Origin: an uncultured Methylophilaceae bacterium | GTDB lineage: Bacteria > Pseudomonadota > Gammaproteobacteria > Burkholderiales > Methylophilaceae | Direction: 5' to 3' | Length of the DNA stretch: 60,653 bases | Assembly (NCBI GenBank): GCA_903863255.1 | Contig: CAIPBJ010000093.1 | Coordinates: forward strand, 1-60,653 | In this document: positions 11,188 to 44,971 of the stretch, one piece after another | Position numbering within the stretch: the first letter of the stretch is position 1 | Layout of the letters: every line of letters begins with the position of its first letter | The notes under the pieces: generated by a model | Databases searched by the model: none | What the model saw: only the letters and a program-made list of their open reading frames with translations | What the model was told of the DNA's origin: nothing | Program-made: the position numbers and the translations under genes

Positions 11188-11997
11188 ATGGCTACAGAGC
11201 ATGCATTGACTCCTTCTGGCTACATAGCTCACCATTTGTCGTTTGATACGGCAAAGATTGGTGCGGGAAATTTCTGGACACTACACGTTGATACTTTCGT
11301 GATGTCAATTATTCTTGGTTGCATTTCAATGGGTCTGATTTGGAGCGTAGTCAGGAAATCTTCCTCTGGAGTTCCTTCAAAAGGCCAGGCCTTTGTTGAA
11401 TTGTTATTTGGTTTTGTGGATGATCAAGTAAAAAACATTTTTCATGGAGACAGACATTCGTTTATCGCTCCAGCAGCACTAACGGTTTTTGTTTGGGTGC
11501 TCTTGATGAATGCCATGGATTTTCTTCCTATAGATGTCATGGCGCATTTTGTTTATGGGCCGCTTGGTTTGGAAAAATGGAGAAGCGTCCCGACATCTGA
11601 TGTTAATACTACATTTGCGTTAGCTTTGACGGTGTGGTTCCTCATGATTTTCTTTGCTATCAAATCAAAAGGTTTGAAAGGTTGGATACACGAATTATTC
11701 TGTTCACCTTTCGGAACAAATCCAATTATCTGGCCAGCTAACTTCCTTTTCAACATGATTGAATATATCTCCAAACCCTTATCACATTCACTTCGATTAT
11801 TTGGAAATATGTACGCTGGCGAAGTTATCTTTCTACTTTTAGGACTTTGGGCTGCCACAGGTCTGACAGGAACGATTGCCGGAGCAATATTAGGTGCTGG
11901 ATGGTCAATATTTCATATTCTGATTGTAGTGTTACAGGCATTTATATTTATGATGCTTACGGTTGTGTATTTAGCGATGGCTCATGAAAGTCATTAA
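11188..11997 (+). CDS. atpB: ATP synthase Fo subunit a
   Basis: Membrane stator subunit carrying the proton half-channels. Starting at ATG 11188 the product has 269 residues; the frame opens earlier at a TTG (11179), but AAGG at 11174-11177 is spaced correctly only for the ATG. The essential arginine lies in '[12 protein letters not shown]', followed by the last hydrophobic helices ending '[10 protein letters not shown]'. Several transmembrane helices are visible. It is the second gene of the complete atpIBEFHAGDC operon. Confidence 0.96.
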
Positions 11998-41286: not shown

Positions 41287-42549
41287 ATGAATAAGGCGAT
41301 AGCATTATACATAGCAGTAACGGTTGGTCTTATTGGATGTGCCGGCAAACAGGCAATTGAAGCTAAACAGCCGCCCTCTCCCCAGGTTTCAGTAAGCAAT
41401 CAGGCCTGTAACTGTCCACCAACCATACACCCATGCCCAGCCGTACCAGAAAATCCAAACTTTATTGAAAGCAAACCGGACGATTTCAGAATCCCGGACT
41501 ATAGTTTGCTTAAACGAGTGAAATGGCAGGATGTCGAGAATTTCACACAAGATGACTTCTTGAAGGTTTGGCCGGCCTGGATACAAAGTTGCAGTGCTTT
41601 AAAATCCAAGCAGGGCTGGCAAGAAGTATGCGAGATGGCGACCAAAATTGTGAATCCTACGAAATGGGAAATCATCAATTACTTTAAACAGAATTTCGAA
41701 GCATTTCGAGCAACAAATCAGGATGGGTCTGATACTGGAATGATAACCGGATATTATGAACCGGTTGTGCGGGGAAGTTTAACAAAATCTGAAACCTATC
41801 GATATCCGCTATACAGTCGACCCGATGATTTGATTACTGTTGAGCTCGCATCCATTTTTCCTGAATTAAGCAACAAGCGAGTTCGTGGAAGGTTGGTGGG
41901 AAATAAATTAGTACCTTATTACAACCGAGGAGAGATCGAGATCGATCCATCACCGCTACAGGGACATGAATTGTTATGGGTTGATGATAGTGTGGATCTA
42001 TTTTTCCTTCAAATTCAGGGTTCAGGTTTAGTAAAATTGAATTCAGGTGAACAAATTCATGTCGGTTATGCTGATCAGAACGGTCAGGCTTATCAGTCTA
42101 TAGGCCGCTTATTGATTGACAAGGGAGAATTATCGCCAGACAAGGCATCCATGCAAGGCATCAAGAATTGGGCTCATAATAATCCAAATAAGATGAGAGA
42201 GTTACTAAATGCAAACCCAAGTTATGTATTTTTTAAGGAATTGCCGGCAGGCTTACCCGGGCCTTTGGGCGCCTTGGGGGTGCCTATAATTGAAGAGCGT
42301 TCAGTAGCAATTGATCCTAAATTTATACCTTTAGGAGCGCCTGTTTTCTTATCCTCAACTTATCCCAATTCAAATAAGGCATTGAATAAGCTAGTTTTAG
42401 CTCAAGATACGGGAGGGGCAATAAAAGGCGGAGTTAGGGCTGATTTTTTTTGGGGGTCTGGAGAGGATGCTGCAAAACAAGCTGGAGCAATGAAGCAGAT
42501 CGGTAGAATATGGGTTCTTTTACCTAAAGAGTTCAATTTACCAAAATAA
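41287..42549 (+). CDS. mltA: Membrane-bound lytic murein transglycosylase A
   Basis: Outer-membrane lipoprotein that cleaves peptidoglycan glycan strands to 1,6-anhydromuropeptides. 420 residues. Lipoprotein signal with lipobox LIGC (cysteine at residue 18), then a proline- and cysteine-rich linker, the MltA domain ('GMITGYYEPVVRGS', 'FFLQIQGSGLV'), and the C-terminal 3D domain with catalytic aspartates in 'LVLAQDTGGAIKGGVRADFFWG'. A shared hairpin terminator lies directly after its stop. Confidence 0.95.
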   Translation: MNKAIALYIAVTVGLIGCAGKQAIEAKQPPSPQVSVSNQACNCPPTIHPCPAVPENPNFIESKPDDFRIPDYSLLKRVKWQDVENFTQDDFLKVWPAWIQSCSALKSKQGWQEVCEMATKIVNPTKWEIINYFKQNFEAFRATNQDGSDTGMITGYYEPVVRGSLTKSETYRYPLYSRPDDLITVELASIFPELSNKRVRGRLVGNKLVPYYNRGEIEIDPSPLQGHELLWVDDSVDLFFLQIQGSGLVKLNSGEQIHVGYADQNGQAYQSIGRLLIDKGELSPDKASMQGIKNWAHNNPNKMRELLNANPSYVFFKELPAGLPGPLGALGVPIIEERSVAIDPKFIPLGAPVFLSSTYPNSNKALNKLVLAQDTGGAIKGGVRADFFWGSGEDAAKQAGAMKQIGRIWVLLPKEFNLPK

Positions 42550-42550
42550 A

Positions 42551-42570
42551 ACGGGAACCTAAGTTCCCGT
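42551..42570. terminator. Bidirectional terminator for mltA and pqqA
   Basis: ACGGGAAC-CTAA-GTTCCCGT directly after the mltA stop. On the minus strand it is followed by TTTATTTTGG, a good U tract for ending the pqqA transcript 28 bp after its stop; on the plus side the T content is weaker. Confidence 0.8.
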
Positions 42571-42597: not shown

Positions 42598-42669
42598 TTA
42601 ACGATTGCAAACGTACATTGTTACTTCAAATCCGAAACGCATTTCTGTAGCAGCTGGTTTTGTCCACAT
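42598..42669 (-). CDS. pqqA: PQQ precursor peptide PqqA (orphan copy)
   Basis: 23-codon gene on the minus strand, convergent with mltA. The peptide begins MWTKPAATEMRF and continues GFEVTMYVCNR. It has the PqqA hallmarks: MWTKP start and the Glu and Tyr (E15, Y19) spaced E-x3-Y, which PqqE cross-links and which become the PQQ ring system. AAGGAG lies 7 bp upstream of the ATG. Cys at position 21, where most PqqA have Ala or Tyr, is unusual. No pqqB, C, D or E occurs in the window, so this is a stand-alone copy; some methylotrophs carry extra pqqA copies away from the main cluster. Confidence 0.92.
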   Translation of the reverse strand: MWTKPAATEMRFGFEVTMYVCNR

Positions 42670-42995
42670 AATAAATCTCCTTAGTTAAATTTAGTTTCGT
42701 TTTGCGATTGCTTAAAGCGACTGCATAACGTAACCGAAGTTTACGCCTCAAGCTTCAAGCCTATTTTATTGATAGTCATTAAATGTTACTAATGATTTTC
42801 ATTAGATTGAGTTTGGATGTTTTTTTGGAATGACGGGGGCAAGGATTTTGGACCGACTCATTATGTTTCAGCAATAACGCTGTATCCCTAAGTGAATATT
42901 CATTAGGCTTTATTAACATGGATTAACTATTTTTGAGCTTATGAACTAATATGGTTAATATGCTTCATATTGAATCAATCGAAGAAGAAATTTAA
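42670..42995. promoter_or_regulatory. pqqA / dioxygenase divergent intergenic region with inverted repeats
   Basis: 326 bp between divergent genes. CTAATGA-TTT-TCATTAG (42789-42805) is a perfect inverted repeat resembling the core of a Fur box (13 of 19 positions). A second palindrome TGAATATTCA (42893-42902) leads into TTCATTAG (42899-42906), repeating the octamer of the first site (42798-42805). No clear sigma-70 promoter was found for either gene. Regulator identity is speculative. Confidence 0.4.
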
Positions 42996-43727
42996 GTGTT
43001 ACCATTAAAATACCGTATCGAATTATTATCTAAAGTTTCAGAACAAGGATTTTCTTTTATTCCACATGACGTAGTCAGGTCATGTTTGACCATGCAATCG
43101 AAAGACGCATTGACCGATTGGGATGCATTCATGGCAAGCTGGAATGATATGCCAATTGACCAGTATATGGCGGATGGTGGTAAATATCGTCGTCGAAGGT
43201 ATGCGGTTCTTTTTTCTGGTAATGTTGACTTGGAAATTAACGTTGAGCCCCACCAGCCACATTATCAAAGCTTGTTCTACAACCAGTTGAATGGTGGTGT
43301 TGCAAGAGAGTTTGAACCGATACTTAAAGATATTCTGCATGGAAGCACCATGCAAAATATAATCAAATTCGGACTTAATATATTCCATGAATTTAAATCT
43401 CAAGCGAAATGGCACATCGAATGTCATCAATTTAGAATCGAGGCGAACCAGACGATAGGGAAGCCGACTCCTGAAGGCATTCATCGCGATGGAGTGGATT
43501 TTGTTTTAGTAATGATGGTAAAGCGCCAGAACATTTCCAGTGGTACAACGACAATGCATGATCTGACCTTCAAAAAACTGGATAGCTTCACACTTAGAGA
43601 ACCTCTGGATATAGCCATAGTAGATGATAGACGGTGCATGCACGGCGTAACGCCTATCGAACCAATTAATAACGATATCCCAGCATACAGGGACGTCTTG
43701 GTTGTGACATACAGGGTAATTTCATAA
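42996..43727 (+). CDS. 2OG-Fe(II) dioxygenase of the free L-amino-acid hydroxylase family
   Basis: 243 residues from a GTG start preceded by GAAGAAG. It resembles the PF10014 family, whose characterised members (the L-isoleucine 4-dioxygenase group, including one from Methylobacillus as I recall) hydroxylate or sulfoxidise free amino acids. Iron ligands H163-x-D165 ('GIHRDGVDF') and H216 ('CMHGVTP'), and R240 for 2-oxoglutarate, are all present at the expected spacing. Two bases separate it from the MFS gene. The amino-acid substrate cannot be deduced. Confidence 0.85.
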   Translation: MLPLKYRIELLSKVSEQGFSFIPHDVVRSCLTMQSKDALTDWDAFMASWNDMPIDQYMADGGKYRRRRYAVLFSGNVDLEINVEPHQPHYQSLFYNQLNGGVAREFEPILKDILHGSTMQNIIKFGLNIFHEFKSQAKWHIECHQFRIEANQTIGKPTPEGIHRDGVDFVLVMMVKRQNISSGTTTMHDLTFKKLDSFTLREPLDIAIVDDRRCMHGVTPIEPINNDIPAYRDVLVVTYRVIS

Positions 43728-43729
43728 AG

Positions 43730-44971
43730 ATGGGTAAAACTTCAACCAAGACAAATTTTGCGAGCCCGCTTTCCAACAAAGGTTTCTTTAAGTTACTCAT
43801 TTTCCGAGTATTCATGGTTTTATCTTACCAAATTATGGCTGTTGTTGTTGGTTGGCACATTTACCAATTAACAAAGGACTTATTTTCATTGGGACTTATA
43901 GGGTTATCCGAATTTGTACCTTATTTTTGTTGCGCCCTTTTTGCCGGATATTTGGTTGACCATTACTCCAAACATTTGTTTGGTGTTTTTTCAGCAATTT
44001 TATTATGCATAAACGCACTGATATTAGCAGCCTGTTCCGCACATTTGCTGGAGAGCAATGAAACCTTGTGGATTTATCTATCTATAATCTTGGTCGGATT
44101 ACTCAGGGGTTTCATCGCACCAACTTACAATACGTTGTTTGCCTATGTCATGCCTCGGGAAGAATTTGCGAAAGCTGCAGGGATAGGCAGTTCAGTTTTT
44201 CAGTTCGGGCTGATATTGGGACCAGCTTTTGGAGGTTTGCTAGTTGCCTACGCCAGCGTAACCGTTGCATATATCGTTTCAGCAATTTTTGCATTTCTCG
44301 CGGCAATCAGTTTGTCACTCATAGGTGTAAGGACTACAACAACAATCCAATCGAATCCAATATTTTTAAGTATCGCTCAGGGTATCAAGTTTGTTTTCAA
44401 CAATCAGGTCGTTCTAGGGGCACAGGCGCTTGATATGTTTGCGGTTTTGTTCGGTGGAGCCGTAGCGATGCTGCCAGCGTTTATACATGATGTTTATCAT
44501 ATAGGTCCAGAGGGTTTGGGGGTTCTAAGAGCTGCACCAGCTCTTGGTGCAATAACAGTAGGTCTTGTTTTTGCAAAGCGTCCTATAACTGAGAATGCGG
44601 GGAAGTGGCTACTTACTGCAGTAGCAGGATTCGGGTTGTGCATGATAACGTTTGCCATGACTAAATATTTTTGGGTCGCTGTATTTCTTTTAATGCTTTC
44701 GGGTGTTTTTGACGGGGTATCGGTTATCCTCCGTACGACAATTTTGCAGCTTGTAACTCCGGATGATATGCGGGGTAGAGTTGCCTCAATAAATGGATTG
44801 TTCATAGGTTCATCAAATGAGCTTGGTGCCTTTGAATCAGGATTTGCAGCTAAAGTGATGGGATTGATACCGTCTGTAGTTTTTGGTGGGGCGATGACTC
44901 TAGGCGTTGTTCTTTTGACAACTAAGGCAGCACCTCAGCTAGTGAAATTAGATTTAAATAAGCTTCACTAG
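43730..44971 (+). CDS. MFS transporter (EntS/MFS_3-like exporter)
   Basis: 413-residue integral membrane protein with about 12 hydrophobic helices. It resembles the MFS_3 group that includes enterobactin exporter EntS: 'RVFMVLSYQIMAVVVGWHIYQLT' and 'LFAGYLVDHYSK' near the N-terminus, 'LTPDDMRGRVASINGLFIG' style motif late ('VTPDDMRGRV'). It starts 2 bp after the dioxygenase gene and is surely cotranscribed, which suggests it exports the hydroxylated product or a related compound. Substrate not deducible. A small IR (44976-44992) follows its stop. Confidence 0.85.
   Translation: MGKTSTKTNFASPLSNKGFFKLLIFRVFMVLSYQIMAVVVGWHIYQLTKDLFSLGLIGLSEFVPYFCCALFAGYLVDHYSKHLFGVFSAILLCINALILAACSAHLLESNETLWIYLSIILVGLLRGFIAPTYNTLFAYVMPREEFAKAAGIGSSVFQFGLILGPAFGGLLVAYASVTVAYIVSAIFAFLAAISLSLIGVRTTTTIQSNPIFLSIAQGIKFVFNNQVVLGAQALDMFAVLFGGAVAMLPAFIHDVYHIGPEGLGVLRAAPALGAITVGLVFAKRPITENAGKWLLTAVAGFGLCMITFAMTKYFWVAVFLLMLSGVFDGVSVILRTTILQLVTPDDMRGRVASINGLFIGSSNELGAFESGFAAKVMGLIPSVVFGGAMTLGVVLLTTKAAPQLVKLDLNKLH

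Follow-up and report, generated by a model that had tools for sequence, protein, structure and literature searches.

A palindrome upstream of scattered pqqA copies and a PqqU-like receptor gene in Methylophilaceae, and a two-component pair that may act on it

Pyrroloquinoline quinone (PQQ) is needed by methanol dehydrogenases, the lanthanide-dependent ones included. Its precursor peptide is encoded by pqqA, of which 3 to 12 copies are reported for Methylophilaceae in the accessible part of one study (PMC4109929), and PqqA availability is given as rate-determining in Methylovorus sp. MP688 in the accessible passages that cite the work (Ge et al. 2015, cited in PMC11317620 and PMC9851590). A TonB-dependent importer of PQQ has been described in E. 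coli as PqqU/YncD (PMC12124388; PDB 6v81 and 9c4o). The pairs MxbDM, MxcQE, MxaYB, and PedS2/PedR2 control genes for PQQ-dependent alcohol dehydrogenases, according to the accessible parts of PMC5784242, PMC5018670, and PMC6115532. The locus described here is an orphan pqqA gene in a window of 60,653 nucleotides (contig C93:1-60653) from an uncultured Methylophilaceae bacterium, the genome of which comprises 2.43 Mb in 143 contigs and is 99.97% complete. As in the multicopy strains, several pqqA genes are found beside a single set of other pqq genes. The difference is a palindrome upstream of the pqqA copies, since no common operator or regulator is described in the accessible parts of that literature (PMC4109929, MP688). 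This palindrome was absent from an earlier note on the same DNA and is the new part of the present analysis. On the sequence evidence, the orphan pqqA is probably functional and belongs to a small regulon for PQQ supply, which one two-component switch would control.

The orphan gene and its upstream signals are as follows.

42598..42669, minus strand: orphan pqqA, 23 codons and a stop, translated as MWTKPAATEMRFGFEVTMYVCNR, with a PF08042 match
42677..42682, minus strand: ribosome-binding site AAGGAG, 7 nt 5' of the ATG, read from the sequence
42738..42743, minus strand: candidate -10 hexamer TAAACT, 46 nt 3' of the palindrome, at an inferred position
42776..42781, minus strand: TAATGA, a third half-site 8 nt downstream of the palindrome, read from the sequence
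42790..42804, minus strand: candidate operator palindrome TAATGAAAATCATTA, found by pattern scan

The orphan is a genuine PqqA gene encoding a known kind of peptide. Its product matched the PqqA family PF08042 with 40.2 bits against a cut-off of 21.1 over its first 19 residues (42613-42669) and has E15, Y19, and C21; E15 and Y19 are the Glu/Tyr pair that PqqE cross-links. The family match, the translation, the AAGGAG motif, and a terminator-like hairpin (below) confirm the 23-codon gene with E15, Y19, ribosome-binding site, and terminator that the earlier note had read. That note had also proposed a search for further copies, and three were found, two on C139 and one on C77, where pqqA is followed by pqqB, pqqC, and pqqE (by eye; PqqD is below the listing length and was not looked for). 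All four genes encode the same 23 residues, so that the orphan peptide equals the operon peptide. Two of the four reading frames have the same DNA sequence; the others show 4 to 7 differences in 69 bases, every one of them silent. A single protein in the genome exceeded the PqqE cut-off (507 bits versus 381), and with one PqqE and one peptide the suggestion that the orphan feeds a different maturation route was not borne out. The idea that extra copies raise the precursor supply fits four copies of one peptide beside one operon, as well as the multicopy pqqA published in the accessible part of PMC4109929.

Multiple pqqA genes are usual in the family. All 60 genomes sampled from it contain pqqA, 58 of them in at least two copies (G020 and G030 have one each), and pqqA was found in 10 of 40 sampled genomes outside it. 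Of about 276 family matches, 104 copies were sampled, drawn from among those with higher scores, and sorted into 20 operon and 84 other copies, those near contig ends being possibly mislabelled. Every one of the 104 has E15 and Y19. Position 21 is Cys in 70 and Met in 34; the Cys that had been taken as unusual is the family norm. The sampled peptides were identical in 9 of the 17 family genomes with at least three sampled copies. In several genomes pqqA copies lie near each other (L063, L066, L088, L105, and L138, the L138 pair being ~100 bp apart), which indicates local duplication.

The palindrome, of the form TNATGANNNTCATNA, is common to all four pqqA copies of this genome, where it starts 129 to 135 nt before the ATG. 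Sufficient upstream sequence was available for 103 family promoters. All ten fixed positions are matched in 51 of them and nine or more in 77, and 72 of these 77 palindromes fall between -155 and -100. Dinucleotide shuffles of the same promoters reached 10/10 in 2 of 2060 cases and at least 9/10 in 37 of 2060, or ~2 expected per 103. As a control, 34 pqqA upstream regions in 29 loci across the class (one from the same order) scored 8/10 or lower. Downstream of the palindrome, the best -10-like hexamer is 45 or 46 nt away in 40 of 62 non-operon family promoters and 46 nt away in 8 of 15 operon promoters, a spacing that would place the palindrome near -65 of the predicted transcription start. 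A third half-site, 8 nt 3' of the palindrome, is exact in 37 of the 62 palindrome-bearing non-operon promoters.

The strict form of the palindrome, TMATGAWWWTCATKA, occurs at five sites in the genome, which belong to the four pqqA genes and to a gene for a TonB-dependent receptor (pqqU). Twelve other genomes contained 38 strict sites, of which 31 belong to pqqA, 1 to a pqqB operon, 2 to the receptor gene (pqqU), 2 to a glycine-zipper gene, and 1 to a xoxF/xoxJ-like location, with 1 remaining without an assigned gene; the reversed pattern had no match in the same 12 genomes. When 20 strict loci were opened from 21 further family genomes, 16 were at pqqA, 3 at a glycine-zipper gene, and 1 at neither. 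In four streamlined genomes (G014, G033, G045, and G055) two tandem pqqA genes have no strict site and the third copy has one. In G018 the palindrome is kept upstream of a pqqB-C operon although no pqqA match was found there (L165:2001-2015).

A candidate for the protein acting at the palindrome came from gene order outside the family. A histidine kinase gene and a response regulator gene lie between two pqqA genes in G077, G082, G084, G087, and G094, each of another family. The same stretch also includes a gene for a hydrolase, prolyl aminopeptidase-like or other, and one for a TonB-like protein, the latter called above the NCBIfam cut-off in G087, below the Pfam cut-off in G077, and by eye in the rest; G087 has pqqU after its second pqqA. 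Of the G077 proteins, the regulator carries a receiver and a GerE domain (NarL-type) and the kinase carries HAMP, PAS, HisKA_3, and HATPase_c domains, as in NarL/GacA-type systems. The regulator differs from these in falling under the UvrY/SirA/GacA equivalog cut-off: among its best 25 NCBIfam matches no equivalog cut-off was reached, the top match, UvrY/SirA/GacA, giving 195 of 280 bits. The present genome has its own pair, which aligned over its length.

C77:74560-75189, minus strand: response regulator gene, product 65% identical to the G077 regulator, kinase gene adjoining

The pair resembles MxbDM, MxcQE, MxaYB, and PedS2/PedR2 as a kinase and regulator, a likeness drawn from their description; unlike them, it shows linkage to pqqA and pqqU. 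The kinases of G019 and G075, of 444 and 474 amino acids (L381:7226-8560 and L384:11814-13238), are shorter than the others and do not have their PAS-aligned stretch. At L342:5665-13799 and L344:4872-9550, in other families, pqq genes form a near-complete PQQ supply cluster together with genes for a kinase, a regulator, a TonB-like protein, and a prolyl aminopeptidase-like enzyme, and at L342 with pqqU as well.

The distribution of the regulator follows that of pqqA. In a sample of 100 genomes, orthologues matched at E 2.8e-83 or better and the next matches at 2.8e-63 or weaker. An orthologue is present in 58 of the 60 family genomes, the present one included, and the two genomes in which it was missed have a completeness of 75% and 81%; outside the family it was found in 9 of 10 genomes with pqqA and in 0 of 30 without. 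A sample of 300 genomes of the order Burkholderiales, partly overlapping the first, gave at E 1e-80 46 genomes with both genes, 1 with the regulator only, 16 with pqqA only, and 237 with neither (Fisher 2.8e-39). The corresponding counts were 37, 1, 16, and 237 after removal of the family itself, and 52, 2, 10, and 236 at E 1e-65. Outside the family, the distance between the regulator and a pqqA is at most 6 kb in 38 of 45 genomes, and the pair is retained even in genomes of 1.3-1.4 Mb. The palindrome follows the regulator in turn. When genomes outside the family were each scored by the best of their examined pqqA copies, it was found in 31 of the 36 with the regulator (43 in all) versus 0 of the 9 without it (10 in all; G507 was unreadable) (Fisher 2.3e-6).

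The palindrome-bearing receptor is PqqU-like, and PQQ uptake is predicted for it. It matched the solved E. coli PqqU with E 1.9e-126 (6v81) and 3.6e-126 (9c4o; query cut at 646 amino acids). Seven of the ten PQQ-site residues checked are identical (Q84, R304, Q308, Q310, R365, Y481, and R536) and three are changed (Y99 to F, K274 to V, and N477 to I). The accessible part of the PqqU study reports that three arginines hold the PQQ carboxylates and that the K274E variant imports PQQ poorly (PMC12124388); those three arginines are identical in the present receptor. What distinguishes the gene from PqqU/YncD is the palindrome that it shares with pqqA, pointing to joint control.

A PqqU-like receptor was found in 53 of 100 genomes. 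In a first set of 30 pqqU loci, 28 were readable and the best palindrome in a 1-kb stretch reached at least 9/10 in 19, compared with 63 of 3000 random reversed stretches. Among 20 further loci, that score was reached in 8 of 12 readable loci from regulator-bearing genomes, two of which (G049 and G019) have the site farther upstream, possibly by chance, and in 0 of 4 from regulator-less genomes, 4 loci being unreadable. Overall, at least 9/10 was found at 27 of 40 regulator-bearing versus 0 of 4 regulator-less pqqU loci (Fisher 0.018). In many pqqU promoters a -10-like box was read by eye ~34 nt past the palindrome, a spacing shorter by one helical turn than that at pqqA. The common palindrome at pqqA and pqqU argues for joint control of synthesis and import in this group.

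Several observations weigh against control of these genes by the pair through the palindrome. No 9/10 site was found in 26 of the 103 family pqqA promoters, degenerate sites are frequent at pqqU (13 of 40 score under 9/10), and the third half-site occurs in 0 of 15 operon pqqA promoters. Five genomes with the regulator (G475, G518, G594, G531, and G681) have an examined pqqA scoring 7 or 8, and two more (G590 and G706) have the regulator with no pqqA match, and the 6 to 7 kb read in each contain no site. In the 300-genome sample the regulator family is not sharply bounded (matches from 1e-81 to 8e-66), and relatedness inflates all p-values of the co-occurrence and palindrome tests. No TNATGANNNTCATNA-form palindrome was found in 15.9 kb around the regulator genes of the present genome, giving no sign of autoregulation.

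The surroundings of the orphan gene comprise the following features.

42551..42570, minus strand: intrinsic terminator-like hairpin of pqqA with a T-rich tail, found by hairpin search
41287-42549, plus strand: mltA, convergent with pqqA, named by the earlier note and by eye
42996-43727, plus strand: 2-oxoglutarate-Fe (2OG-Fe) dioxygenase gene, divergent from pqqA, PF10014, E 7e-69

Shuffles of the same 500-base region gave 0.4 expected hairpins of this kind. No pqqBCDE gene was present among the open reading frames of 38.1-46.9 kb of the window, in agreement with the earlier description of an orphan between mltA and a dioxygenase gene. Conservation of the spot beside mltA, which that description had left to be checked, was borne out: among 80 MltA loci, 47 were taken as Methylophilaceae-type by identity and title, and pqqA lies within 5 kb 3' of mltA in 37 of them, at 138 bp to 3.8 kb. 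In seven of the 10 misses the sequence 3' of mltA is shorter than 2 kb, and none of the 33 remaining MltA loci has pqqA beside mltA. A palindrome of at least 9/10 stands at 34 of the 37 mltA-adjacent pqqA genes. In the window the palindrome sits in the region 42670-42995, common to the divergent 2OG-Fe dioxygenase and major facilitator superfamily (MFS) transporter genes (42996-44971), and these two genes could, from this arrangement, be co-controlled with the orphan pqqA. A second palindrome in the window (11982-11996) lies in the 3' end of an open reading frame read by eye as ATP synthase subunit a and was taken as chance.

Other genes may also respond to the palindrome. A glycine-zipper (17-kDa-antigen-like) gene lies 3' of a strict palindrome in G005, G013, G041, G047, and G056, and may be a third kind of target. 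The sites are as follows.

L161:2001-2015 and L164:2001-2015: palindromes at glycine-zipper genes
L240, L244, and L245: palindromes at glycine-zipper genes, site at 1501

A CRP-type gene near three glycine-zipper loci was not seen by eye at two others and was dropped from consideration. G018 has a strict palindrome in the interval from xoxF to a xoxJ-like gene named by eye (L166:2001-2015), a position that may tie the lanthanide methanol dehydrogenase to the switch.

In the regulon that we consider probable, the response regulator would bind the palindrome, predicted near -65 at pqqA and roughly a helical turn nearer the start at pqqU, and would presumably activate promoters that have no good -35 box. 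With one switch acting on several identical pqqA genes, many precursor peptides would be available to the single PqqBCDE set, and PqqU would recapture PQQ lost to the medium. The signal might, at a guess, be PQQ demand by methanol dehydrogenases. A more ambitious form, which we offer tentatively, is that an unnamed two-component system senses PQQ shortage, or a PQQ-less idle dehydrogenase, at the cell envelope and, by way of the one palindrome, drives the scattered pqqA genes together with pqqBCDE and the importer PqqU; cofactor synthesis and scavenging would then be a single circuit, with pqqA copy number as a lineage-tuned dosage knob.

The main rival, which we consider unlikely, is that the palindrome is a Fur box and that canonical Fur, and with it iron status, controls pqqA and pqqU. 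Its standing comes from the resemblance of TAATGAAAATCATTA to the Fur consensus. TonB-dependent receptors are often Fur targets, the genome has one canonical Fur, and its pqqU palindrome overlaps a second Fur-like stretch. Against this, the strict sites in the genome are at PQQ genes only (iron genes were not searched for), and none of 17 opened one-mismatch loci, of about 60 listed, stands by eye before an obvious iron gene. TCATGA half-sites, a poorer fit to the Fur consensus, are common, and G062 and G206 have Fur and pqqA and no palindrome. A PQQ-specific Fur paralogue was also considered and rejected: the present genome, G001, G019, G031, G014, and G033 have one Fur-family match each, and the 9 others of 15 genomes searched have one to three.

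A somewhat less probable alternative is that the operator is real and bound by another regulator, the pair merely travelling with pqqA, for example to control PQQ-dependent dehydrogenases. In favour of this alternative, support for the pair consists of co-occurrence, linkage, and position, and relatedness weakens the statistics; the persistence of the pair even in genomes of 1.3-1.4 Mb and the missing palindrome where the regulator is missing (0 of 9 pqqA genomes, 0 of 4 pqqU loci) speak for the pair. We regard as improbable another role for the orphan PqqA such as lanthanide uptake, on which the accessible part of PMC11317620 speculates for Methylobacterium extorquens; because the orphan and operon peptides are the same, a separate role is not readable from sequence. 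Least probable is a relic of duplication: the operon elsewhere that the earlier note had tied to this outcome does exist, complete, on C77, but the relic itself is not supported given a peptide unchanged despite silent changes, an intact ribosome-binding site, operator, and terminator, and the conserved palindrome and place beside mltA (37 of 47 loci).

Searches of one open-access collection found no description of an operator common to scattered pqqA genes and pqqU, nor of a two-component pair tracking it. With a common switch on the pqqA copies and the importer gene, and a likely regulator pair, the making and importing of PQQ may be co-controlled in these bacteria. Through the common operator and candidate regulator, the puzzle posed by so many pqqA genes becomes a circuit that can be tested. 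They would also tie PQQ synthesis to import, which a 2025 paper takes as generally independent, and offer a possible lever for PQQ production in methylotrophs.
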